From Dyella marensis (lineage in GTDB: Bacteria; Pseudomonadota; Gammaproteobacteria; Xanthomonadales; Rhodanobacteraceae): a DNA stretch of 64,000 nt. Below the pieces are notes generated by a model, which made no database searches, was not told the DNA's origin, and saw only the letters and a list, made by a program, of their open reading frames with translations. Below, in pieces: positions 6,403 to 19,957 of this stretch (within the stretch, counting starts at the first letter, position 1; every line of letters starts with the position of its first letter). A program made the translations under genes and the position numbers. The stretch lies in assembly GCF_900112865.1 (NCBI RefSeq), contig NZ_FONH01000003.1, positions 266,005 to 330,004 on the forward strand. The letters are read 5' to 3'.

Positions 6403-7566
6403 ATGGATGGCCGGGGAAACGCATTGCGCCTGTTGTTGATCGCGGGGAACTGGCTGGCGCGTGCGCTGCAGACCTTGCTGGTCTTGGCCAGTTGCATGGT
6501 CTGCATCGCCTACGGGTTTGCGCTGTTTGGCGATGGCTCGTTTGGCTGGGCCTTATTGCTCTGGACCACGCTGCAGTACCCGGCGATCGTCATTCACGAG
6601 CTTGGCCATTGCGCAGGCGCGCGCCTCGGCGGCATGCGCGTGCACACGGTGCAGATCTCGGCGTTCGAATTCAATCCGCTGCGGCGTGGATTCCGCTGGC
6701 GCTGGCGTCCGCTTCCCAGAAAAGCCGGGATCGGCGGTTACGTCATCGCCTATGTGGACCCGGCCACGCCACCGCGGCGAGCGAGAGTGCTGATGACCGC
6801 GAGTGGTCCGGCGCTGAACCTGGTGTTCGCGGCGATCTTGTTCGGCCTGGGCGAGCTGTTGCGGCCACGTGCCTTGGGCTGGCTTTGCCTGATGTTCGCC
6901 GTCATCAACGCCATGATGGGACTGGTCAACCTGGTGCCGCATCTGGGGCATCTGGCAAACGATGGCCTCCAGCTCTGGCAGCTGTGGAGAGCCGGGCCTG
7001 ACTATGTAGAACCGCCGCATGCGCGCCTGGCTGGCGCGAGCATGGCCGGCTGTACCGCCGATCGCCTGCCCGAGGAGGATCTCGCGGCGATGGAGGCCGA
7101 CGGTCCGGTGATGCGGCTTTTCGCCTTGTGGTATCGGCTGAAGGGCGATCAGAACCGCGGCGAATGGATGCGGGCGGTGGCGAGGCAGCAGGCGATGGAC
7201 GAGGCAGTGGCGGAGATCGATCCTCGCCTGCTCGCTCCATGGAACGATCTGCTGGCGCTGTTGCGCGCGGAGCTTGCCTTCAGTCGCGCGCTGGCATCGA
7301 ACGATGCCACTGCCCTCGGCCAGGACCTGCTGCCGCCCAGACTGGCCTGGTACATGCCGCATTTCCAGGCTCGTTGCCTGGCCTTGCAGGCTGCGCTGAA
7401 CGGCGAACGGGAAGCATGCGAGCACTGGCTCGACGCCTGCCGCAGGGAGGCCGGGCAATCCAAGGATGCCGCGGTTCCGTTGAGCGAAGCCATGCTCGGC
7501 GGTCAGGTGCGGGCGTTGCTCGATCGTGTAAGGCCCGCCGTCAGCGCGGAACCCACGCTCGCTTAG
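6403..7566 (+). CDS. M50-like (site-2 protease type) membrane metalloprotease homologue
   Basis: 387-residue inner-membrane protein. H65-E66-L-G-H69 is the zinc-binding HExxH, placed in a hydrophobic helix as in site-2 proteases. Further on, SGPALNL (about 134-140) and NLVPHLGHLANDG (176-188, Asp187) match the usual second metal-site motif N-x-x-P-...-D-G. About four membrane segments lie in residues 1-190. The C-terminal 190 residues are soluble, Cys/Arg-rich and of unknown fold. Typical S2P members have a PDZ domain, which I do not see. It overlaps the convergent gene by a shared TTA/TAG stop. Proteolytic role is inferred from the motifs only. Confidence 0.75.
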   Translation: MDGRGNALRLLLIAGNWLARALQTLLVLASCMVCIAYGFALFGDGSFGWALLLWTTLQYPAIVIHELGHCAGARLGGMRVHTVQISAFEFNPLRRGFRWRWRPLPRKAGIGGYVIAYVDPATPPRRARVLMTASGPALNLVFAAILFGLGELLRPRALGWLCLMFAVINAMMGLVNLVPHLGHLANDGLQLWQLWRAGPDYVEPPHARLAGASMAGCTADRLPEEDLAAMEADGPVMRLFALWYRLKGDQNRGEWMRAVARQQAMDEAVAEIDPRLLAPWNDLLALLRAELAFSRALASNDATALGQDLLPPRLAWYMPHFQARCLALQAALNGEREACEHWLDACRREAGQSKDAAVPLSEAMLGGQVRALLDRVRPAVSAEPTLA

Positions 7567-8645
7567 CGTGCGGCCGTCGCGCGCCTGGACGCATTGACCC
7601 AATTGACCTCCCAGGTCTTGCCGCCGTCCGCGGAGAACGCCTGCTCGTCGCTGTTCGAACCCTTGGCCAGATGGAGAAACGAAAACCGCGCCAGGATCGC
7701 CTTGCCGTGGTAACTCTCCTGGTCGTAGAAATCGCCGCGCCCGTCGGCGAAGGCGCCGATCATCGGCGTGCCGAACACGCCGCTGTCGCTGCTGACGAAG
7801 TCCAGGCTCCATTGCCGGGACTTCGGATTGAACAGGCGCAGCGACAGGAATTGCAGATGGCCGGACGGTCCCTTGGTGTCGATCTCGGCGAGGTTGGCGC
7901 GGCCGTTCCACAGCTTGCGCACCTGCACGCTGCCGTCGAGCGCCGTCCATCCGGACTGGCCGGAGAGCGGATGCTCCATGCGCGACATGTGGATATCCCA
8001 GCTGCCCAGTTGCCAATCGAAATCGTGTTGCCCCGGCTCGTTGCCGACGGGCTTGAAGGCGGTCACCGCTTCGCCGGGTTTGACGCGGGTGAGGTCGGCG
8101 ATGAAGTTGGCTTCCCAGGTCTTGCCGCCGTCGTCCGAGTAGTCCTGCTCGTAGCTGTGCGCATCGGGCGAGGTGACCGTCCAGATGCCGCGCAGCAGGA
8201 CGGCGCGCCCCTCATGCAGCTCCTGGCTGTAGAACTCGCCGCGGTTGCGTTCGAAGCGGCCGACCGAGGGCGTTTCCAGCCTGCCTTCGTCGCTGTCGGC
8301 GAAGTACTGGCGCCACTGATGCGCGGCGGGGTCGTAGAGGAACACGGTCATCCCTTCGAAGCGGCCATCGGCGCCGTCCGCTTCGATCTCCTCGACCTGC
8401 GCCTTGCCGCCCCAGATCGGGTTCACCCGGACGGTGCCGCGCATTTCCGCCCATTCGGTGCTTCCGGACAACGGTTGCTTGAGCACGCGGATATGGGTGT
8501 GCCAGGTACCCAGGTTGAAGTCGAAATCGTGGCTGCCGTCGGTGGGCGCGGCGTGGACGGGCGGTTGGCGGTCGGCCCAGGTCGGGGCGGATGCGAGGCC
8601 CAGCGCGATGGCGGAGCAGAGCAGGAGCTTCATCGTCGCGTGCAT
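7563..8645 (-). CDS. Secreted two-domain HDFDF (DUF1579-like) protein
   Basis: 360-residue protein with a signal peptide ending near TWADRQ. It contains two tandem copies of one domain: the first opens with HDFDFNLGTWHTHI and the second with HDFDWQLGSWDIHM. Both close with D-GGKTWEAN/EVNW. The family resembles DUF1579, a ligand-binding fold without a known reaction. A one-domain relative lies at 15550-16119. The two genes share an upstream motif (8706-8746 and 16177-16217) at nearly the same distance from the start, which suggests common control. Function unknown. Confidence 0.8.
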   Translation of the reverse strand: MHATMKLLLCSAIALGLASAPTWADRQPPVHAAPTDGSHDFDFNLGTWHTHIRVLKQPLSGSTEWAEMRGTVRVNPIWGGKAQVEEIEADGADGRFEGMTVFLYDPAAHQWRQYFADSDEGRLETPSVGRFERNRGEFYSQELHEGRAVLLRGIWTVTSPDAHSYEQDYSDDGGKTWEANFIADLTRVKPGEAVTAFKPVGNEPGQHDFDWQLGSWDIHMSRMEHPLSGQSGWTALDGSVQVRKLWNGRANLAEIDTKGPSGHLQFLSLRLFNPKSRQWSLDFVSSDSGVFGTPMIGAFADGRGDFYDQESYHGKAILARFSFLHLAKGSNSDEQAFSADGGKTWEVNWVNASRRATAAR

Positions 8646-8761: not shown

Positions 8762-9259
8762 TCAGAACAGATCGGCCAGCAACTTGAACTCCCGATCCGG
8801 CGTTGCGCCGAGGAAACGTTCCGGATGGAAGTCGCCGCCGAATGCCACGTTGTAGGTGACTTCGGAATAGAACTGCCCGCTGTAGCTCACGTGCCGTCCA
8901 TTGATCATCAGCCGCGCGTACTCGCCAGGCGCAAGGCGGATCGCCTGCGGACGCGGCGCGCGAGGCGGCTTGCCCTCATGCGTGCCGGGCAGCAGCCCCA
9001 GCGCGAGCTGGCCATCGTCCAGCCACTGCAAGCGCAGGCTGCGTTCCAGTCGCGGAAGGGAAGGGGCCGTGCCCGATGCCAGGCGGTCGACGCGAAAGTC
9101 GTTCCACTCCGCGATGCGGAAATACTCGGCCTGGTAATGCGCATCCATCGCGGTCAATGGCATCGCGCGCGGCAGGGCGACGCGCTCGCTTGCACGCGGA
9201 GCGCCACGCGTGGCCTTGGTCCAGAGGATTTCGACGATCTGTACGGCAACCGGCGGCAT
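8762..9259 (-). CDS. Hypothetical protein
   Basis: 165-residue soluble protein that I do not recognise. It has no signal peptide or membrane segment. It is rich in charged and aromatic residues, with an even coding pattern over its whole length (for example FRIAEWNDFRVDRL and YNVAFGGDFHPERFLG near the C-terminus). The start is the first ATG of the open frame. It runs ahead of the HDFDF gene on the same strand, 116 bp away with the conserved motif between, so it is probably a separate unit. Confidence 0.65.
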   Translation of the reverse strand: MPPVAVQIVEILWTKATRGAPRASERVALPRAMPLTAMDAHYQAEYFRIAEWNDFRVDRLASGTAPSLPRLERSLRLQWLDDGQLALGLLPGTHEGKPPRAPRPQAIRLAPGEYARLMINGRHVSYSGQFYSEVTYNVAFGGDFHPERFLGATPDREFKLLADLF

Positions 9260-11147: not shown

Positions 11148-11247
11148 TCGCGTTACCCCGGTCGCTAAAGAATCTGACAGCGCCGGCCGTCGCCGAAGGG
11201 CCCAATGAGCACACCCGGACGTCGGGTGCCATCAACGAGCCAAGGCC

Positions 11248-11397
11248 ATGTCTGAGAAAACCTGTGCCGCCTGCGACTGCGAACTGGATGCCAATGCGAT
11301 CCAGGTAAAGATCGGCGGCAAGACCGTCGAAGTGTGCTGCGAAGAATGTGCGGAGAAGCTGCGCGAAGCGCATGCCTCGGCCGCTTCCGGTCGCTGA
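11248..11397 (+). CDS. Small Cys-rich protein (CxxCxC ... CCxxC)
   Basis: 49-residue protein with AAGG before the ATG. Six cysteines are arranged as C6-x-x-C9-x-C11 and C30-C31-x-x-C34, separated by a beta-like QVKIGGKTVEV stretch and followed by a helix ending HASAASGR. The layout resembles the small metal-binding treble-clef/YHS/TRASH proteins, so zinc or copper binding is likely but not shown. It is followed after 20 bp by a GC-rich hairpin with TTTT, which supports it as a separate expressed gene. Confidence 0.75.
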   Translation: MSEKTCAACDCELDANAIQVKIGGKTVEVCCEECAEKLREAHASAASGR

Positions 11398-11452: not shown

Positions 11453-12277
11453 TCAGGTCGATTGCTTGAACGCGCTCGGCGAGCGTCCGTAGGCCTGGCG
11501 GAACGCATTGGCGAAATGGCTGTGGCTGGAGAAGCCCAGGTCCGCGGCGAGCGCGGAGAGGTCCTCGCTGCGCGGCACCAGGTCCAGCGCGCGCGCCAGG
11601 CGCAGGTGCAGGTGGTAGCGGTACAACGGCACGCCTTCCACCTGACGAAACACCTGGGTCAGATAGACCGGCGAGCAGCCGATCTCCGCGCCGATGTCGG
11701 CCAGCGTCCAGCGTCGCGACAGGTCGCTGGCGAGCAGCACTTTCACGCGGTCGGCCAGGCGACGCCGTGCGTGCGTGGTGGCCAGCTCGCGCGCGCTGCG
11801 CGGGCCGAGGCTGCGGCCGATCAGGGTGAGCAGCAAGGCCTCGGCTTCCAGCGGTTCGATGCTGTCGCCTTCGAGGTTGTGGCGCAGCAGCGCCACCAGG
11901 GCTTGCGCGCGCGGATCGATCGGTTGCGCTTGCCGGTTGAAACCGACCTTGTCGCCGCCCTGGCGCAGCAGCGCGCGCGGCGCCAGTTCTTCCAGCATCG
12001 CGTCCGGCAGTTCCACCGAAAGGCAAGCGTCGCCACCGTTCACCGGATGGCTGACCTGGTAGCCCTCGCCCGCGTTGAAGAACAGCATGTGGTTGGCATC
12101 GGCCACGGACTGGTCGCTGCCGACGTGGCGCACGTACACGCCGCGATACGGGAACACCAGATTGGTCGACGCGGCGCATTCTTCCGCACTGCGATGCCGG
12201 CAGGCTCCGTCGCAGCGCACATTGCGCAGCGCCACGGTGTCGGTGCTCAGCCAGCGATCGACGTGGAAGGTGGACAT
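11453..12277 (-). CDS. AraC family transcriptional regulator
   Basis: 274-residue regulator. The N-terminal cupin-like domain carries a cysteine group (C22, C26, C34) that could bind metal or sense redox state. The two helix-turn-helix units are at about 191-212 (TLADIGAEIGCSPVYLTQVF) and 241-262 (DLGFSSHSHFANAFRQ). It shares the C-terminal signature of the regulator at 5482. It is transcribed in the same direction as, and 38 bp after, the DUF4198 gene that ends the four-gene operon. It may therefore be co-transcribed or regulate that operon, but there is no direct evidence. Confidence 0.9.
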   Translation of the reverse strand: MSTFHVDRWLSTDTVALRNVRCDGACRHRSAEECAASTNLVFPYRGVYVRHVGSDQSVADANHMLFFNAGEGYQVSHPVNGGDACLSVELPDAMLEELAPRALLRQGGDKVGFNRQAQPIDPRAQALVALLRHNLEGDSIEPLEAEALLLTLIGRSLGPRSARELATTHARRRLADRVKVLLASDLSRRWTLADIGAEIGCSPVYLTQVFRQVEGVPLYRYHLHLRLARALDLVPRSEDLSALAADLGFSSHSHFANAFRQAYGRSPSAFKQST

Positions 12278-12315: not shown

Positions 12316-13134
12316 TCAGGGATAGCCGAAGGCCAGGCTCGAAAAGGACGTCTCGAAGTCCATGTCGTCGCCGGGCGGCAGCGGCCGGGTCCAGATCACG
12401 TTGAGCAGCCAGCTGCCATGGGCGGGCACGCTGAACACGGCGCGCCCGGCAGCGTCGGTGCGATGGGTTTCCACCGGGCTTTCGTCATGTTCCAGGCGGG
12501 TCAGCTTGACCAGTGCGCCGGGCAGGGGCTGGCCGAGGTAGAGCACGTGGATGGGAAGTTCGTCGCTGTGCGGTAGGGCGTAGGGATTGCGCTCCGGCAC
12601 GATTTCCAGGGTAAGGCCGAGCGGGCGGGTGGCGATCGCGGTGTCGGTGCCGGGCGGTCCTACTTGCATCAAGGCCTTGGCATGGCGCCCGTAGCGTTCG
12701 GCGCCGTCGCGATCCATGCGCCGGGTGCGCTCGCGTTCGGCGAGCGCCGGGGTGAGTCCCTCTGCGCGGAGGTAATCGTTGAAGCGGATCGCCGGCAACG
12801 AGGTCATCGCACGGTTGTCGGTCTCCAGCACCAGCAGGTGGGTGCCGGGCGTTGCCAGTTGCAGATCGGCATCCGCATCGGCGGCGCCGACGTGCAGGCG
12901 CGCATGCAGGTCGATCGCGGCACCGCCCGGGTCGATCGCCTGGAAACGCGTGATGCGCCGCGCCGCGATCGGCGAGCGTTGGCGGTAAGGACCGTGCCCG
13001 ACCTGCAAAGTCAGCGGCACGGTCGCCTGCGGCGCAACCCGGTATTGCGAAGGCTGCAGCCAGAAATCGTGCGCGGCGGCAGGCATGGCCGCGAGCGCGA
13101 GCAGAACGCTACCCAACCAGGTATGCATGTTCAT
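12316..13134 (-). CDS. DUF4198 periplasmic protein (metal-uptake associated)
   Basis: 272-residue exported protein. The signal peptide would be cut after AMPAAA to leave HDFWLQPS, so the mature protein starts with histidine; HDFW is the hallmark of DUF4198. Two beta-sandwich-like halves follow, with GAALVKLTR-type bacterial-Ig features in the second half (about 190-260). DUF4198 proteins are often encoded beside nickel/cobalt uptake systems, as far as I recall. Its ATG overlaps the stop of the preceding membrane gene (ATGA), so translation is coupled. It is the last gene of the four-gene operon. Confidence 0.85.
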   Translation of the reverse strand: MNMHTWLGSVLLALAAMPAAAHDFWLQPSQYRVAPQATVPLTLQVGHGPYRQRSPIAARRITRFQAIDPGGAAIDLHARLHVGAADADADLQLATPGTHLLVLETDNRAMTSLPAIRFNDYLRAEGLTPALAERERTRRMDRDGAERYGRHAKALMQVGPPGTDTAIATRPLGLTLEIVPERNPYALPHSDELPIHVLYLGQPLPGALVKLTRLEHDESPVETHRTDAAGRAVFSVPAHGSWLLNVIWTRPLPPGDDMDFETSFSSLAFGYP

Positions 13135-13616
13135 TCGAGATGATCCGGCAGATAGCCCGGCGTCACGGGCAGATAGGGCAGGGCCGCGGCAAGCACCGCG
13201 ATGGCGATCAGCCAGCTGGACATCACCTTCGCCGCGACCGGCACGCGCCAGCGCACCGCGAGCAGCGCCGGCACCAGCGCGAGCATGCACAGCCAGGCCG
13301 CGGGCAGGTGATACCAGTGCCCTTCGAACGCGATCATCGCTCCGCTGCACAGTCCGGCATCCACTGCCAACAGGATGGCCAGTTGCGCTGACAACCCGCG
13401 TGGCAGATGCACCGTGGCGGCGCATGCGATCACGCTCAGCCAGCCGCAGAGAAACACCAGGTCGACGGTGGCCTGCGGCAGTGTCAAAGCGAATCCGCAT
13501 ATCGCAGATATCGCCATTGTCAGGAAGCACGCCATCCGCACGCTCCGCGGCGCAAATGCCAACGCCACCCCGAATGCCGCGCACAGCAGCATGGCCGCCG
13601 CGACGCCGCCCCTCAT
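13131..13616 (-). CDS. Small polytopic membrane protein of unknown family
   Basis: 161 residues, almost all hydrophobic, with about five or six predicted membrane segments and no signature I recognise. Polar points that might matter are AFEGHWYHLP (a His pair in a loop at about 108-117) and the C-terminal PGYLPDHLE. Both ends overlap neighbours by ATGA, so it lies between HupE/UreJ and DUF4198 as an obligate operon member. It could be a partner or energising subunit of the transporter. That is inference from position only. Confidence 0.75.
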   Translation of the reverse strand: MRGGVAAAMLLCAAFGVALAFAPRSVRMACFLTMAISAICGFALTLPQATVDLVFLCGWLSVIACAATVHLPRGLSAQLAILLAVDAGLCSGAMIAFEGHWYHLPAAWLCMLALVPALLAVRWRVPVAAKVMSSWLIAIAVLAAALPYLPVTPGYLPDHLE

Positions 13617-14212
13617 GACACGGCCCTCAGCAGGAACCAGCAGCCGGCCGCGCCGATCAAGGCGCCCAGGCCGCGTGCAAGCCGCCGGCCGACTGGCCGC
13701 GCGCACAGCAGACCAAGCGCGATACCCACCGCGTGCAGCAACCCCGTCGCCAGCACGAAGCCGCTGCTGTAACCCACCGGATCCGCCGCCGCGGGCAACT
13801 CGCGTCCATGCGCATAGCCATGGAACAACGCGAACAACGCCACCACCGCAACCGCCAGCCATGCCGGCGCCCGCCAGGCCAGCGCAATGCACGCACCGAG
13901 CACCAGCACCGACAGCGCGATGCCGCTTTCCACCGGCGGCAGCGGTGCGCCGAACATGCCGAGCATCGCGCCGCCGACCATCATCGCGGGGAATACCACC
14001 GGCAGCACATGCACCAGCGGGCGACCGAGGAACGCGCCCCACAGGCCGACCGACACCATCGCCAGCAGATGATCCGCGCCCGACAGCGGGTGGGCGAAGC
14101 CGGCGAGAAAGCCACCGGCCAGGCCGGTGCCGGTGTGCGCATGGACGGGCAGCGCGAGTACGCATGCACCGGAGAGCACGGCACCTATGCCGATGGAGCG
14201 CGGCGAACTCAC
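13613..14212 (-). CDS. HupE/UreJ family metal permease
   Basis: 199-residue inner-membrane protein. HPLSGADHLLAM at 41-52 is the family's metal-binding motif, in the first membrane helix. The signal sequence ends in PVHA, so the mature N-terminus would be HTGTG; an N-terminal histidine is a known metal ligand in related nickel permeases. Five or six more segments follow, with HGYAHGRELP around 130. HupE/UreJ proteins take up nickel (or cobalt). No hydrogenase or urease genes are in the window, so the end use is unknown. It overlaps both neighbours by ATGA. Confidence 0.88.
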   Translation of the reverse strand: MSSPRSIGIGAVLSGACVLALPVHAHTGTGLAGGFLAGFAHPLSGADHLLAMVSVGLWGAFLGRPLVHVLPVVFPAMMVGGAMLGMFGAPLPPVESGIALSVLVLGACIALAWRAPAWLAVAVVALFALFHGYAHGRELPAAADPVGYSSGFVLATGLLHAVGIALGLLCARPVGRRLARGLGALIGAAGCWFLLRAVS

Positions 14213-15438
14213 TGATACGCTCCGGCCGCAGCCGCTTGCGCATCCGGCGCGGCGAGGAACGGGAACACGCTGTCCGACTGTTCGCGTTCGTCGCGCGTCA
14301 ACCCGTCGCTGACGCTGTCCGTGGTGCCGTCGACCAGCATCGAGCGATAGACATTGGAAGCGCTATAAGTCGGCGTGCGGCCGCCGCAATCCTTGGCCAG
14401 GGCGGGATCGCCGCCCAGTGCCGCGCGCTCCACCGCGAAGAACTGCGTGCAGGTGGCGGAGGCACTGTTGACCCACAGGCGATCGTCCGCGAGCAGCGCG
14501 GCCAGCCGGTGGTAGCGCTGTGCCGGCGGCGCTTTGGCATTGGCCAGCCACTGGTTGCCGCACTTGCCGTCGAAGCCGTCGTACAGGCCGAGGTTGCCGG
14601 CGATCTCGTCGACGAACTTCGCCCCGTCCGCGGGCGTGGCCATGTTGTAGGTCTCCTTGAACGCGTCGCTGATTTCGTCGGGAGCCAGCGTGCCGAGCAG
14701 CGCATTGCCGGTGAGCGGCCGGCCGGCGCGATCGATCTGCCGCGTCGGGCCCTGCGTGGCAGCCCATACCGCGAGCAGCGGCCCGCCCTTGCTCACCGCG
14801 CCGAGGTCGATGGATACGACGATCGCCGACGTCGTCCAGCCGGCAAGCAGGTTCTTTGCGGGTCCGCCCTGGGTGTGCGCCCACTCGTCGGCGACGGCGT
14901 GCACGGTGGCCGCATCGAACGCGGGGCAACCGGCGGCATCCACCTTGGCGCCTGCTTCGAGCGCGGCATGCGCCTTGTCATAGGCGGCGCGGGTGCCTTT
15001 GACGTTGTTGAAGAACGGATCGTCGCGCGGGCCGGCGAACACGCGGAAGCTGCCGTGCTCGCTCGCCAACCCCTGCGTGTCGCCCGGATTGCCGTGCGCC
15101 GTATCCGTGTCGCCCGCGGTGCAGGTGACATCCGTGCCGGAACGGAAGCGGCAGCGGATGGCGGTGCTGGCGCCGGTGTGGCCGAAGCGCTTGCCGCTGT
15201 CGATATGGAAGACGTAGTCGAGCTTGTCGGAGAAGGTATGCCCGACGATGTCCATCACCAGGTTCAGGTGCTTGCCGTCGGGCGAGGTCCAGGCATAGAG
15301 GTCGCCGATGTCGGCGCGCGGGTCGCCGATCACCGACGGGGTGTCGAGATGGTCCGAGGCGTGGGTGTTGGCGGTGAAGGCCAGGCTCAGGCCGAGGCAG
15401 GCCAGCGCCTGCAGCCGCATGGCAGCTGTGCGTTTCAT
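14209..15438 (-). CDS. DUF4331 secreted protein, first gene of the operon
   Basis: 409-residue exported protein. The signal peptide ends near TNTHA and the mature protein starts SDHLDTPSVIGDPRADIGDLYAW, the signature of DUF4331 (S-x-H-x-x-x-P, then D-DLY-W/F). It has cysteines spaced for several disulphides (CRFRSGTDVTC, CPAF, CGNQW, CTQFF, CGGRT). The function of DUF4331 is not known to me. I start at MKRTAAM; an earlier in-frame ATG at 15516 would spoil the signal peptide. Its stop overlaps the HupE start (ATGA), so it is tied to metal transport by position. Confidence 0.85.
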   Translation of the reverse strand: MKRTAAMRLQALACLGLSLAFTANTHASDHLDTPSVIGDPRADIGDLYAWTSPDGKHLNLVMDIVGHTFSDKLDYVFHIDSGKRFGHTGASTAIRCRFRSGTDVTCTAGDTDTAHGNPGDTQGLASEHGSFRVFAGPRDDPFFNNVKGTRAAYDKAHAALEAGAKVDAAGCPAFDAATVHAVADEWAHTQGGPAKNLLAGWTTSAIVVSIDLGAVSKGGPLLAVWAATQGPTRQIDRAGRPLTGNALLGTLAPDEISDAFKETYNMATPADGAKFVDEIAGNLGLYDGFDGKCGNQWLANAKAPPAQRYHRLAALLADDRLWVNSASATCTQFFAVERAALGGDPALAKDCGGRTPTYSASNVYRSMLVDGTTDSVSDGLTRDEREQSDSVFPFLAAPDAQAAAAGAYQ

Positions 15439-15469: not shown

Positions 15470-15549
15470 CAGTAGGCCCGACAGGGCGGGAGGCGGGCTA
15501 TCAAAATCTTTAGCAAGCCTGCCGCCGTCTTGCCCCGGCATGGGGCGGC

Positions 15550-16119
15550 TCAGGCGCGGGTGTAGCGCATGATCCAGTTGGTTTCCCAGCTGCGGCCTGC
15601 GTCCGGGGAGAACGCCTGTTCCCATTGGCAGGTGTCCGCCGCGATCGGCGTGAAGATGCCGCGCACCTTGACCGACCTGCCCTCGAAGGTTTCGTCGGAG
15701 AGGAAGGTGCCGATGCCATGCTCGAAGCGGCCGAGGCCGGGCGCGTCGATGGCGATCGGCCTGGCGCCATCGAGATACCAGTCCGCCCACTGGCCGCTGG
15801 CGGCGTCGTAGCCGCGGATGCCCAGGCCGTTGTAGGTCTTTCCGCCGCGGCGCGACTCGCTCTCGTTGATATTGACCGCGCCGCCCAGCAGCGACTGGCA
15901 GCGCGAAGTGCCCTCGAACTCGTCCCAATCCTTGCTTCCCGCCAGCCGCTTGCGCAGGCGCCGGTGGTGCACGCGCCAGTTGCCGAGGAAGAAATCGAAG
16001 TCATGTACGCCGGAGGCCGGTGGCGGCGTCGCGCCCTGGCCATCCAGGACGAACAAGGCGGGCAGGGCGGCCAGGGTCCATTGCAGGACCTGGCGCCGGA
16101 CCGGGTCGATCTCGTGCAT
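15550..16119 (-). CDS. One-domain HDFDF (DUF1579-like) protein
   Basis: 189-residue protein homologous to each half of the protein at 7563-8645. The shared features are HDFDFFLGNWRVHHRRL after a hydrophobic leader and the closing SPDAGRSWETNWIMRYTR. The N-terminus (RRQVLQWTLAALPALFVL) has two arginines before a hydrophobic run, so export, perhaps by Tat, is possible but the Tat motif is imperfect. ATG follows GAGGTG. It carries the same upstream motif as its paralogue, 58 bp before the start. It is followed by the DUF4331 operon on the same strand. Function unknown. Confidence 0.8.
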   Translation of the reverse strand: MHEIDPVRRQVLQWTLAALPALFVLDGQGATPPPASGVHDFDFFLGNWRVHHRRLRKRLAGSKDWDEFEGTSRCQSLLGGAVNINESESRRGGKTYNGLGIRGYDAASGQWADWYLDGARPIAIDAPGLGRFEHGIGTFLSDETFEGRSVKVRGIFTPIAADTCQWEQAFSPDAGRSWETNWIMRYTRA

Positions 16120-16176
16120 GCGGCACCTCGACGTGATGGGGGCGGCGGCACCATGCGCCGGGCACGGCGACACCGG

Positions 16177-16217
16177 AATAGCCACTTGGCGAGGTTTGGC
16201 CGGACCACTTCGGCGGG
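16177..16217. promoter_or_regulatory. Conserved upstream motif, copy 2 (AAGTGG direct repeats)
   Basis: Read on the minus strand: CCCC, spacer, AAGTGGTC, a CCAAACC core, then AAGTGGCTATT, matching 8706-8746 with one base less in the middle. It is 58 bp ahead of the one-domain HDFDF gene and also directly upstream of the divergent isochorismatase-like gene, so it might control both. Confidence 0.55.
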
Positions 16218-16794: not shown

Positions 16795-17026
16795 GTGCGT
16801 ACGGGTTTCTTACGCACGATACCCATCCTTTTCACCCTGCTGAACCTTTTCCCAGCAAGTTGTTGCGCCGCGGAATGACGCGGCGATGACGCTCGCTCAT
16901 CCTGCGCGGCGAATCCGGGCACGCGCCAATAGAAGAGCGGGCATCTCGCGATGACTCGTTCCGTTGGCGCGTACGCCTGCCGGTGCCTTAGGGGGGCGCC
17001 CACTTAAAAGAGGGAGGAATGGAGTC

Positions 17027-19957
17027 ATGAGTCAGGGCATCGCGCCGCGCATGCGGCTTGGTCATGGAATCGCTCGCCGGCCGCTCGCTGCGGCCTGCAT
17101 CGCCGCCTCGTTGATGGCCGGCACCGCTGCCGCGCAGGACACGCAGGCGCCGCAACAGCAACCGCCTCAACAACAGCAGCCTCCGGCGCAGGGCAACCCG
17201 CCTGATGCACAGAAGAAGCCCGCGCCGGGCCAGGTCAGCAACCTGCAGGAAGTGGTGGTCACCGGCATTCGCGGCAGCATCGAGAGCTCGATCCGCGCCA
17301 AGCAGAACTCCGACAGCATCATCGAGGCGATCTCGGCCGAGGACATCGGCAAGCTGCCGGATGCGAGCATTGCCGAAAGCCTGGCGCGGCTGTCGGGCCT
17401 GGCGACGCAGCGCGTGGACGGGCGCGCCAATGTGATCTCGATCCGCGGCCTGTCGCCGGATTTCGCCGGCACCACGCTCAACGGGCGCGAGCAGGCGACG
17501 ATCGGCGAGAACCGCGGCGTCGAGTACGACCAATATCCCTCCGAGCTGATCAGCGGCGCGGCGGTGTACAAGACGCCGGATGCGAGCCTGGTCGGGCAGG
17601 GGCTGTCCGGCACGGTGGACCTGCATACGATCAAGCCGCTGGATCTGCCCAAGCGCGCCATCGCGATCAACCTGCGTGGCGAGCACACCACCAACGACAA
17701 GCTCAACCCCGGTTCGGGCGTGGGCGACATGGGGCATCGCGCAAGCTTTTCGTATATCGACCAGTTCTTCGATCACACCCTGGGCGTGGCCGTTGGCTTT
17801 GCCCAATTGGATTCGCCGATCCAGGAGAAGCAGTACCAGGCGTGGTGGTGGAGCGTGGACAACGGCTCGGCCGGCATCGAGCAGAACTGGGGCGGCCCGC
17901 ACACGCCCGGGCTGCCGGACAATGTGCTTTCGCAGGAGGGCATGCAGTTGCGTTCGCAGTCGGAGAACCAGCTGCGCAACGGCTTGATGACGGTGCTGGA
18001 GTGGGCGCCGGGTGAGCACTACCACACCACGCTGGATCTCTATTACTCGACCTTCAACGAGCGCAAGTACAAGAACGGTGCGCAGTGGTCGAGCAGTCCG
18101 TACAACTCCAACGGTATACCGGTGTACAGCGATGTGGGCATCACGCCGGCCTCGCCGTATCCGATCGTCACCTCCGGCACGATGAGCAATATCGCGCCGA
18201 TCCTGCAGAACGAATACAGCAAGGAAAAGGACAAGCTGTTCTCGGCCGGCTGGAACCATCAGTACGACTTCGGCAACGGCTGGGTGATTACCGGCGACCT
18301 GTCGTACTCCATGGCCAAGAAGCGGTTGCGCGATGCCTACCTGTTCAGCGGCCTGGCGGGCAACCCGACCACGGACGTGTATTTCCGTACGCCTACCGGC
18401 GACGATTATCCGTACTTCCGCCCTGGCGTGGACCTGGCCAACCCGGCGAGCGTGGTGTTCACCGACCCGGACAACTACGGCTACAACGGCCGCGAAGAGT
18501 TCGACAAGCAGAAGGACACGATCAAGGCCGCGCGCTTCCAGGTCTCGCATCCGGTGGGCTGGATCTTCAGCACGGTGGACGTGGGCGCGGCCTACTCCGA
18601 GCGCAAGAAGACCAAGCAGGCCGACGTGTTCTTCGCCTGGCTCAACGGCAATGGCGACGGCGCCGGCAACGGGCCCTACGATCACACCATGGGCGTGCCG
18701 GTGGGCTCGGCCTTCCTGCGCGGGCCGACCTCGCTGAGCTACGGCGGCATCCCCGGCATTCTCAACTACAACGTGCTCGATGCACTGGGTAGCCAGTTCT
18801 ACCTGACCCAACGCAACGGACAGTCGGACTGGAGCCGCAATTACTCGATCACCGAGAAGGTGCCGGTCGCCTACGCCAAGTTCAATATCGACACGCATCT
18901 CGGCGACGTGCCTTTGCGCGGCAATGTCGGCGTGCAGTTCGTGCGCACCGACCAGTCGTCCACCGCCGTGCAGACCAATGGCGATGCGCGGGTCGGCACT
19001 CTCACGGGCGGCGCCAAGTACAACAAGTTCCTGCCCAGCCTGAACCTGGTGGCGCAGATCGCCGACGGCCAATACCTGCGCTTCGGTTTTGCCAAGACCA
19101 TGGCGCGCGGCCGCATCGACGACGAGAAGGTGTCCAGCTCCGCTTCGGTGGCGCGCGTCACCGAGGGTCCGGCAGCCGGGCAGGTGCTGTGGTCGGGCAG
19201 CGGCGGCAACCCGCAGTTGCGGCCGTATATCGCCGTGGGCACCGACCTGTCGTGGGAGAAGTACTTCGGCAAGTCGAGCTATGTGGCGGTGGCGGTGTTC
19301 AACAAGAATCTGCTGAACTACATCTATAACAAGACCGTGCTGGACTTTAATTTCGACAAGGCCGGCTTCGTCAACGACAACCCCACGCTGACGCCGACCA
19401 GCCCGATCGGCTCGTTCACCCGTCCGGAAAACGGCACCGGCGGACGCATGGAGGGCCTGGAACTGTCCGGTGCGTTCGAGGGTGGCCTGCTCTCGCAGTC
19501 GCTGGATGGTTTCGGCCTGCAGGCGAACTTCTCGTTGACCAACAGCTCGATTCCGGAGAGCTCCGTCTCGTCCATTCCAGGTGGTCCGAAGACGTTGCCG
19601 GGCCTGTCGCGCAAGGTCGCCAACCTGGCCCTGTACTACGAGAAGTACGGTTGGTCGATCCGCGTGGCCGAGCGCTATCGCTCCTCGTTTACCGGCGAGA
19701 CGGTGCCGCTGTTCGACCAGCTCGGCTATGTGAAGGTGCTGGCCGACAAGCAGACCGATCTGCAGATCGGCTACGCGTTTGCGGACGACACGCGCTTCAA
19801 TGGCCTGTCGCTGCTGCTGCAGGTCAACAACCTGAGCAACTCGCCGCAGAAGACGCAGCAGATCTCCGGCCTGCCGAACAATGTGCAGATCGGGCGTCCG
19901 CTGGACTACGTGACCTGGGGCCGCACGGTGATGTTCGGACTGAACTACAAGCTCTGA
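17027..19957 (+). CDS. TonB-dependent receptor (Xanthomonas/Caulobacter type)
   Basis: 976-residue outer-membrane transporter. ATG follows AGGGAGG. A signal peptide ends at TAAAQD, then a Q/P-rich linker, then LQEVVVTGIRGS and the plug domain (about 75-200) with EDIGKLPDASIAESLARL and ISIRGLSP. This is the plug of the TonB-Xanth-Caul subfamily, whose members import plant-type glycans or other large substrates. The barrel fills the rest and ends with GRTVMFGLNYKL. The substrate is unknown. It is transcribed alone, with a 232-bp gap upstream and a strong terminator downstream. Confidence 0.93.
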   Translation: MSQGIAPRMRLGHGIARRPLAAACIAASLMAGTAAAQDTQAPQQQPPQQQQPPAQGNPPDAQKKPAPGQVSNLQEVVVTGIRGSIESSIRAKQNSDSIIEAISAEDIGKLPDASIAESLARLSGLATQRVDGRANVISIRGLSPDFAGTTLNGREQATIGENRGVEYDQYPSELISGAAVYKTPDASLVGQGLSGTVDLHTIKPLDLPKRAIAINLRGEHTTNDKLNPGSGVGDMGHRASFSYIDQFFDHTLGVAVGFAQLDSPIQEKQYQAWWWSVDNGSAGIEQNWGGPHTPGLPDNVLSQEGMQLRSQSENQLRNGLMTVLEWAPGEHYHTTLDLYYSTFNERKYKNGAQWSSSPYNSNGIPVYSDVGITPASPYPIVTSGTMSNIAPILQNEYSKEKDKLFSAGWNHQYDFGNGWVITGDLSYSMAKKRLRDAYLFSGLAGNPTTDVYFRTPTGDDYPYFRPGVDLANPASVVFTDPDNYGYNGREEFDKQKDTIKAARFQVSHPVGWIFSTVDVGAAYSERKKTKQADVFFAWLNGNGDGAGNGPYDHTMGVPVGSAFLRGPTSLSYGGIPGILNYNVLDALGSQFYLTQRNGQSDWSRNYSITEKVPVAYAKFNIDTHLGDVPLRGNVGVQFVRTDQSSTAVQTNGDARVGTLTGGAKYNKFLPSLNLVAQIADGQYLRFGFAKTMARGRIDDEKVSSSASVARVTEGPAAGQVLWSGSGGNPQLRPYIAVGTDLSWEKYFGKSSYVAVAVFNKNLLNYIYNKTVLDFNFDKAGFVNDNPTLTPTSPIGSFTRPENGTGGRMEGLELSGAFEGGLLSQSLDGFGLQANFSLTNSSIPESSVSSIPGGPKTLPGLSRKVANLALYYEKYGWSIRVAERYRSSFTGETVPLFDQLGYVKVLADKQTDLQIGYAFADDTRFNGLSLLLQVNNLSNSPQKTQQISGLPNNVQIGRPLDYVTWGRTVMFGLNYKL

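Follow-up and report, generated by a model that had tools for sequence, protein, structure and literature searches.

What does a DUF4331 protein do at the head of an operon that also encodes a HupE/UreJ permease and a DUF4198 protein? The question is raised by four genes on the minus strand of a 64,000-nucleotide stretch of the Dyella marensis genome (5.0 Mb; RefSeq assembly GCF_900112865.1, contig NZ_FONH01000003.1, positions 266,005 to 330,004). The whole of this stretch is called the window, and the coordinates given below refer to it. The genes are, in operon order:

14209 to 15438, minus strand: DUF4331 (PF14224) protein, 409 amino acids; ATG start; Pfam score of 59 bits (cut-off, 27) over two stretches
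13613 to 14212, minus strand: HupE/UreJ (PF04955) permease, 199 amino acids; GTG start; Pfam score of 185.8 bits (cut-off, 23)
13131 to 13616, minus strand: hydrophobic membrane protein, 161 amino acids; no known family; poorly conserved
12316 to 13134, minus strand: DUF4198 (PF10670) protein, 272 amino acids; Pfam score of 127.2 bits (cut-off, 34)

An initial annotation had described a four-gene operon with ATGA overlaps throughout. The coordinates and the Pfam assignments (three families confirmed) bear out the operon, and the DUF4331-HupE-DUF4198 order recurs in other genera. All three overlaps are 4 bp long; the second and third read ATGA, and the first reads GTGA. The operon is real and conserved, and it most likely handles metal in the cell envelope. 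We give about an even chance to a more specific proposal, namely, that the exported DUF4331 and DUF4198 proteins capture an ion and pass it to the HupE permease. This would provide a testable role for a family of function-unknown proteins found in many proteobacteria; it also joins three families with links to metals in a single unit and outlines a regulon (i.e., a motif, a candidate regulator, and targets).

Conservation of the gene neighborhood

The window DUF4331 protein is a divergent member of its family, scoring 59 bits with PF14224 versus approximately 416 to 516 bits for canonical members. Conversely, those canonical proteins that were scored reach 14 to 33 bits with a profile of the window-type subfamily. 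Among 147 genomes sampled from the host's family, 23 carry PF14224 and 8 carry the window-type subfamily (the other seven proteins are 56 to 90% identical to that of the window). The subfamily profile found 7 positive genomes, including that of the window, among 369 genomes of the class, and PF14224 was detected in 22 of 398 genomes of a phylum sample. The PF14224 counts are lower bounds, since one genome with both DUF4331 and DUF4198 (G753, locus L148) was missed by this profile. HupE directly follows DUF4331 in all eight carriers of the family sample. In the seven besides the host, DUF4198 is likewise present and the third gene has a match, which is weak in three.

Scanning genome contigs with the peptides DDPFFNN and ASDHLDTP yielded 50 named loci, five of which are from genomes already in the family sample. 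They belong to Dyella, Luteibacter, Dokdonella, Lysobacter, Sphingomonas, Caulobacter, Nitrospirillum, Massilia, Acidobacteriaceae, Corallococcus, and others. DUF4198 is present in 41 of these loci, together with HupE in 20 (e.g., in Sphingomonas, Nitrospirillum, Lysobacter, and Luteibacter) and without it in 21 (e.g., in Caulobacter and Massilia). A tetratricopeptide repeat (TPR) gene takes the place of HupE and DUF4198 in the other nine. Genes in the loci were called by a codon-score gene caller, so that start codons are rough.

From the family-level and phylum-level samples, we also assembled 34 other DUF4331 loci (20 of 21 further phylum genomes were included, G683 being the exception; L038 of G101, with a weak DUF4331 match and HupE not nearby, and contig-end copies in G037 and G113 were left out). 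In 23 of the 34 loci, the neighbors of DUF4331 include a TPR gene and a fusion gene that joins an Ang-like domain to HupE_UreJ_2. These genes were named with profiles built for this study, and Pfam assigned both of the two fusions submitted to it to HupE_UreJ_2. In all 23 fusions, read by eye, a hydrophobic stretch runs up to a His that follows Ala (22 fusions) or Gly (1 fusion). DUF4198 occurs in three of the 34 loci (L125, L126, and L130), one of which (L130) combines a divergent DUF4331 with PF04955 HupE and DUF4198; a TPR gene is the only such partner in two (L129 and L131). Genes for extracytoplasmic function (ECF) sigma and anti-sigma factors lie near DUF4331 in 17 loci and a TonB receptor gene in 8, and at L108 the receptor gene sits between members of the TPR/Ang-like HupE_UreJ_2 set.

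A HupE-type permease or DUF4198 is thus found in 26 of the 34 other loci, beside the 41 of the 50 named ones. The initial annotation would have been undermined by a DUF4331 occurring mostly without HupE or DUF4198, and the opposite is the case: DUF4331 tracks HupE-type permeases or DUF4198 across lineages that share little sequence.

DUF4331 occurs as a tandem pair at three loci (L108, L109, and L110), which make up a third group of these genes; the analyzed stretch of L109 contains no permease gene. In seven Massilia loci (L060, L062, L063, L071, L072, L074, and L083), DUF4331 is flanked by a gene of the phosphoenolpyruvate (PEP)-mutase family immediately upstream and, downstream, by an XRE-like regulator gene (named by eye); the AraC-type regulator and the motif described below are absent from these loci.

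A candidate metal-binding N-terminus in DUF4331

A tripeptide X-X-His at a free amino terminus constitutes the amino-terminal Cu(II)- and Ni(II)-binding (ATCUN) motif. Cleavage at the predicted signal peptidase site would leave the window DUF4331 protein with such a start (S-D-H-L-D-T-P, from Ser28). At this A-x-A type site, 47 of 48 unbroken subfamily members read S-D-H and one reads A-D-H, and position -1 is occupied by Ala in 47 members and by Cys in the other. The N-terminus count and the alignment exclude four of the 50 named loci, in which the DUF4331 frame is broken (L079, L080, L084, and L085). In a wider set of 37 DUF4331 proteins, 33 have A|S-S-H or A|S-D-H at the site (for one of these, at L104, the pattern had picked an inner site and the N-terminus was taken from another reading), two read S-H-H (L128 and L130), and in two the match stops short of the N-terminus. 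The ATCUN motif has been described for Cu(II) and Ni(II), for example, in the copper importer Ctr1 (PMC8953729). The mature DUF4331 protein should therefore be regarded as a candidate ATCUN-like Cu/Ni chelator, which would make its N-terminus a third candidate chelator of the operon, in addition to the two N-termini singled out in the initial annotation.

That annotation had also placed DUF4331 outside the cell. The protein has a signal-peptide-like start, and nothing favors the outside over the periplasm. A confident AlphaFold2 model of the mature protein (pLDDT, 90.7; pTM, 0.91; pLDDT of the first ten residues, 72) contains many strands. No credible sequence relative was found in PDB (best E value, 0.095), and a Foldseek search with the model gave zero matches at an E value of ≤0.001. 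The best VIA-align match, a CBM74 protein (Z score, 7.3; root mean square deviation, 4.9; 201 aligned residues), has a score in the common range, and no fold assignment is made from it. A full-text literature search found no paper naming DUF4331 or PF14224.

Predicted histidine-first starts of HupE and DUF4198

The initial annotation had proposed that HupE and DUF4198 begin with His after signal cleavage, and this would hold if both are cut at their A-x-A type sites. The predicted mature HupE begins H-T-G-T-G, and the Ala-His site occurs in 22 of 22 proteins (one read by eye). The predicted mature DUF4198 begins H-D-F-W-L, and the A|H site occurs in 42 of 43 proteins, the remaining one having a broken frame.

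The window HupE covers its family profile in full (PF04955, positions 4 to 179 of 179) and contains the metal motif pointed out in the initial annotation, HPLSGADHLLAM. With HupE_UreJ_2 it scores 19.6 bits, below the cut-off of 24.5, and it is not classed as an Ang-HupE_UreJ_2 protein. Nine residues are invariant among 28 aligned rows, some of which are copies of one genome (i.e., H1, H16, D22, H23, M53, M61, H106, H110, and E113), and the core shared with HupE proteins linked to urease or hydrogenase consists of H1, H16, D22, H23, E70, H106, H110, and E113. In the 147 family genomes, eight of 16 strong HupE matches lie in DUF4331 operons, seven lie beside urease genes, and one lies beside hydrogenase genes. 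These neighbors were named by eye, with Pfam assignments for three (urease gamma, a UreG-type GTPase, and NiFe-hydrogenase), and five weak HupE places stand outside this classification. In an unrooted HupE tree, the DUF4331-linked and nickel-enzyme-linked sets are separated by a branch with a support of 0.999, with the HupE of L130 falling in the nickel-enzyme set. The two sets also differ in sequence: position 4 is Thr or Ala in 22 of 22 DUF4331-linked proteins versus His in 5 of 7 urease- or hydrogenase-linked ones, Met61 occurs in 22/22 versus 1/7, and Cys83 occurs in 20/22 versus 0/7 (counts made without the truncated L223, which does have Met61). No HupE relative was found in PDB at an E value of ≤10.

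For DUF4198, PDB contains a relative of the window protein with bound nickel (9gcb; E = 1.3e-5). The Ideonella protein IsDUF4198 is reported to bind Ni2+ through His1 and His18 with a Kd of 18 nM, and its melting shift with Cu2+ is reported as only -0.2 degrees (PMC12537917). The LLLGH segment of the nickel-bound protein, which would contain His18 if that chain is numbered from His1, lies opposite LQVGH26 of the window protein, in an aligned stretch that scores negative. Present in 18 of 23 rows, His26 is a candidate second metal ligand. Separately, PDB entries 9mhi and relatives and 9mhk match the DUF4198 profile (E, approximately 1e-15); their phosphoribosylglycinamide formyltransferase title looks wrong for the sequence.

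The 161-amino-acid membrane protein has no Pfam match above cut-off and no NCBIfam match, and the same is true of eight homologues. Its alignment (19 rows) has zero positions with a conserved H, C, D, E, M, or N.

A shared motif and its candidate regulator

The following features, including a peptide gene that the initial annotation had overlooked, accompany the operon:

15497 to 15514, minus strand: 18-bp motif GCTAAAGATTTTGATAGC, upstream of the operon, found by motif search
11164 to 11181, plus strand: second copy of the motif, GCTAAAGAATCTGACAGC, before the next feature
11248 to 11397, plus strand: open reading frame for a 49-amino-acid Cys-rich, TRASH-like peptide (CAACDC...CCEEC)
11453 to 12277, minus strand: AraC-type regulator with C22, C26, C34, and C85; Pfam HTH_18, 63.5 bits

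The motif search, run on the upstream DNA of 29 loci, returned RCTAAAGANNNNGAYAGC with a score of 449, versus 220 to 224 in three shuffled sets. In 30 of 53 sets, DUF4331 has the motif immediately before it. Thirty-six of the 50 named loci contain it; the 815,098 bases searched hold 47 copies, versus 0 for the reversed pattern. The eight carrier genomes contain 16 exact copies versus 0 control copies; eight lie before DUF4331, four before a small Cys-rich gene, three before PEP-mutase genes, and the remaining one before an alpha/beta-hydrolase gene that is followed by a PEP-mutase gene (targets named by eye, with Pfam assignments for two PEP-mutases and the hydrolase). Allowing one mismatch gave 20 real versus 19 control matches in these genomes; of the four extra sites, two precede regulon genes (L177 and L178) and two look like noise. 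In the phylum sample, the exact motif occurs in 33 of 398 genomes versus approximately 41 with the reversed control, and most of these matches are attributed to chance because the control is at least as frequent. Six of the phylum sites were read (L148 to L150, L157, L158, and L167), and four of them belong to the regulon.

The peptide carries C-x2-C and C-C-x2-C, and its matches to TRASH families (PF08394, 20.9 bits; PF24273, 20.3 bits) are below the cut-off of 27. Its homologues lie behind the same motif, beside an AraC-type regulator, in other genomes. The regulator has Cys at positions 22, 26, 34, and 85 in 36, 36, 32, and 26 of 37 rows, respectively, in which some genomes occur twice. It is present in 31 of the 50 named loci, and its presence goes with that of the motif: among the 50 loci, 28 have both regulator and motif, 11 have neither, 8 have the motif only, and 3 have the regulator only (Fisher P = 0.0007, ignoring relatedness). 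A homologue of the regulator occurs in 8 of 8 operon carriers versus 55 of 139 other family genomes (relatedness likewise ignored). In Dokdonella (L184 and L185), the genes for the regulator, the peptide, and a PEP-mutase are on a different contig from the operon and the motif is present at both places, which argues for control in trans. We inspected 20 regulator loci, the first three being carriers; of the 17 from other genomes, 15 have the motif and peptide and 9 have a PEP-mutase gene (by eye). The regulator is the likely actor at the 18-bp motif.

At one locus (L181, genome G014), the regulator, motif, and TRASH-like peptide lie inside a cytochrome c oxidase cluster (COX1 by Pfam; CtaG- and SURF1-like genes by eye), possibly a hint of copper in one genome; L201 looks similar by eye. 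In one of the Dokdonella genomes, a DUF305 gene (L185, 8711 to 9067, plus strand) stands between the PEP-mutase and regulator genes.

Proposed mechanism

We propose that DUF4331 is exported and would bind a divalent transition metal, for which the free Ser-Asp-His N-terminus is the simplest site, and that DUF4198 would be a periplasmic metal binder with a His1/His26 site. One or both proteins may hand the ion to HupE, which would act as a single-component inner-membrane permease with His at its mature N-terminus; the 161-amino-acid membrane protein would be an accessory. The neighboring AraC-type regulator would act at the 18-bp motif and so control the operon together with the TRASH-like peptide.

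As for the metal, nickel and copper are the lead candidates. The HupE pattern at position 4, Met61, and Cys83 would suit a softer metal (copper, for example), and so would the ATCUN-type start of DUF4331 together with the copper preference reported for the Ang-1 domain (PMC12537917). Responses to iron and to Fur are reported for DUF4198 relatives elsewhere (PMC3751524). With copper as the metal, the operon would represent a copper import route of new make-up; with nickel, the question becomes what use nickel has in hosts without urease or hydrogenase.

A wider version of this proposal is possible, if doubtful. DUF4331 might be a family-wide metal catcher that acts through an ATCUN start (S-S-H, S-D-H, or S-H-H) and partners several kinds of HupE permease; in the lineage of the window, it would share a regulon with a TRASH-like peptide and an AraC-type sensor, and the cargo of the Met61/Cys83 HupE group would be a soft metal, copper or another, and not nickel.

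Several observations weigh against metal capture for uptake. HupE is missing from 30 of the 50 named loci and is therefore an inconstant partner, and six of the 34 other loci (L109, L111, L118, L123, L127, and L128) lack permease, DUF4198, and TPR genes alike within the analyzed stretch, which at L111 stops at a contig edge. His26 of DUF4198 is replaced in 5 of 23 rows. The use of the peptide ASDHLDTP in the scan biases the named loci toward an S-D-H N-terminus. The Dokdonella regulators lack C26, C34, and C85 even though the motif and the peptide are present, so that the arrangement can do without these cysteines, and the regulon includes PEP-mutase and alpha/beta-hydrolase genes with no evident role in metal handling. 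Finally, urease alpha (PF00449), [NiFe]-hydrogenase (PF00374), and CbiC were found in none of the eight carrier genomes, with control genomes positive, so that the usual demand for nickel or cobalt is missing. The initial annotation had noted the lack of hydrogenase and urease within the window, and the PF00449 and PF00374 searches extend this to the whole host genome.

Alternative explanations

The alternative that survives best, though we consider it unlikely, is metal defense. The unit would then buffer or detoxify excess metal, with the ATCUN and His-first proteins serving as periplasmic sponges and the TRASH-like peptide acting in the cytosol, and it would be metal-induced through the AraC-type regulator. 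This would suit the lack of urease, hydrogenase, and CbiC in all eight hosts and the presence of the TRASH-like peptide and, at one locus, the DUF305 gene beside the regulator; the DUF305 protein CopM is reported to bind copper and to serve in copper resistance (PMC4335983). In Sphingobium sp. ba1, a HupE/UreJ-domain gene within an efflux cluster is reported as the most induced gene under nickel excess (PMC5557971). Efflux genes also lie near canonical DUF4331 genes at two loci, i.e., resistance-nodulation-division (RND) pump genes at L111 (513 to 6198; ACR_tran, with Cus-like neighbors by eye) and a cation-efflux gene at L102 (1733 to 2701). However, among the genes of the window operon and those read by eye at motif sites, none was recognized as an efflux pump. 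HupE itself is held to be a nickel importer. The same is reported of HupE-type permeases (PMC12537917), and because they are held to be importers, we consider uptake likelier than defense. Of the earlier proposal of a metal capture and uptake unit, envelope metal handling is supported by the conserved neighborhood, and the predicted His-first N-termini recur in relatives; the choice of uptake over efflux or buffering is not supported.

Somewhat less probable again is a different stress or catabolic regulon, in which the AraC-type regulator would sense an oxidant, an electrophile, or a metabolite and the DUF4331 operon would have joined later, in a role unrelated to metals or in cofactor supply. 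More genomes have the regulator than the operon (63 versus 8 of 147), and none of the 17 regulator loci from other genomes has a window-type DUF4331 gene within 1.5 kb (by eye). The frequent motif, peptide, and PEP-mutase genes at these 17 loci point the same way, as do the PEP-mutase genes upstream of DUF4331 in the seven Massilia loci. On the other hand, those operon proteins that have a family resemble metal-binding or transport families, DUF4331 excepted, and DUF4331 keeps HupE-type partners in lineages without the AraC-type regulator.

It is improbable that the operon simply supplies nickel to a nickel enzyme, as an ordinary HupE does: HupE family membership and the nickel-bound DUF4198 structure, whose ligands look conserved here, speak for such a role, but none of the eight hosts has urease alpha or NiFe-hydrogenase (glyoxalase I, acireductone dioxygenase, and Ni-superoxide dismutase were not searched for), and the window HupE group differs from the urease- and hydrogenase-linked set at position 4, Met61, and Cys83 and lies across the 0.999 branch from it.

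Relation to known systems

The closest described system is the Ang-1-HupE_UreJ_2 "anglerase," which likewise pairs a HupE-type permease with an exported metal-binding domain that begins with His and of which DUF4198 is a reported neighbor (PMC12537917). The Ang-like HupE_UreJ_2 fusions at DUF4331 loci other than the window type strengthen the likeness. In the window, by contrast, the permease is a PF04955 HupE without an Ang domain, the putative binders are separate proteins, and DUF4331 leads the operon. HupE/UreJ proteins linked to urease or hydrogenase belong to the same Pfam family and share the His/Asp/Glu/Met core; the window group differs from them in lacking the HPG start, in its conserved Met61 and Cys83, and in its position on the opposite side of a supported branch. 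DUF4198 also lies beside transport genes in reported Fur-regulated Caulobacter clusters (PMC3751524) and in reported PepSY/DUF2271 clusters (PMC8238504), but the partners and regulator described there are different and point to iron or redox. The small peptides resemble TRASH metal-binding peptides in their C-x2-C ... C-C-x2-C pattern and weak Pfam matches; unlike the TRASH domain proper, window-type peptides score below the Pfam cut-off, are free-standing (approximately 45 to 52 residues), and lie behind an AraC-linked motif. A literature search found no paper joining "HupE UreJ," tetratricopeptide, operon, and TonB. The operon is a novel make-up within the known type of HupE plus exported binder and not a separate type.

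Neighboring genes

No RNA leader was detected upstream of the operon (0 Rfam matches at the gathering score between positions 9000 and 20000). A TonB receptor gene (16964 to 19957; TIGR01782) was considered as an operon partner and dropped, since it does not recur among the neighbors in the clustering of locus genes. A DUF1579-like gene lies upstream of the operon (15550 to 16185, minus strand; 25.6 bits, cut-off 25.2). A homologue of it is upstream of the operon at L020, related genes occur near the operon in three loci, and a second DUF1579-like gene, named by eye, is located at 7563 to 8645 on the minus strand.

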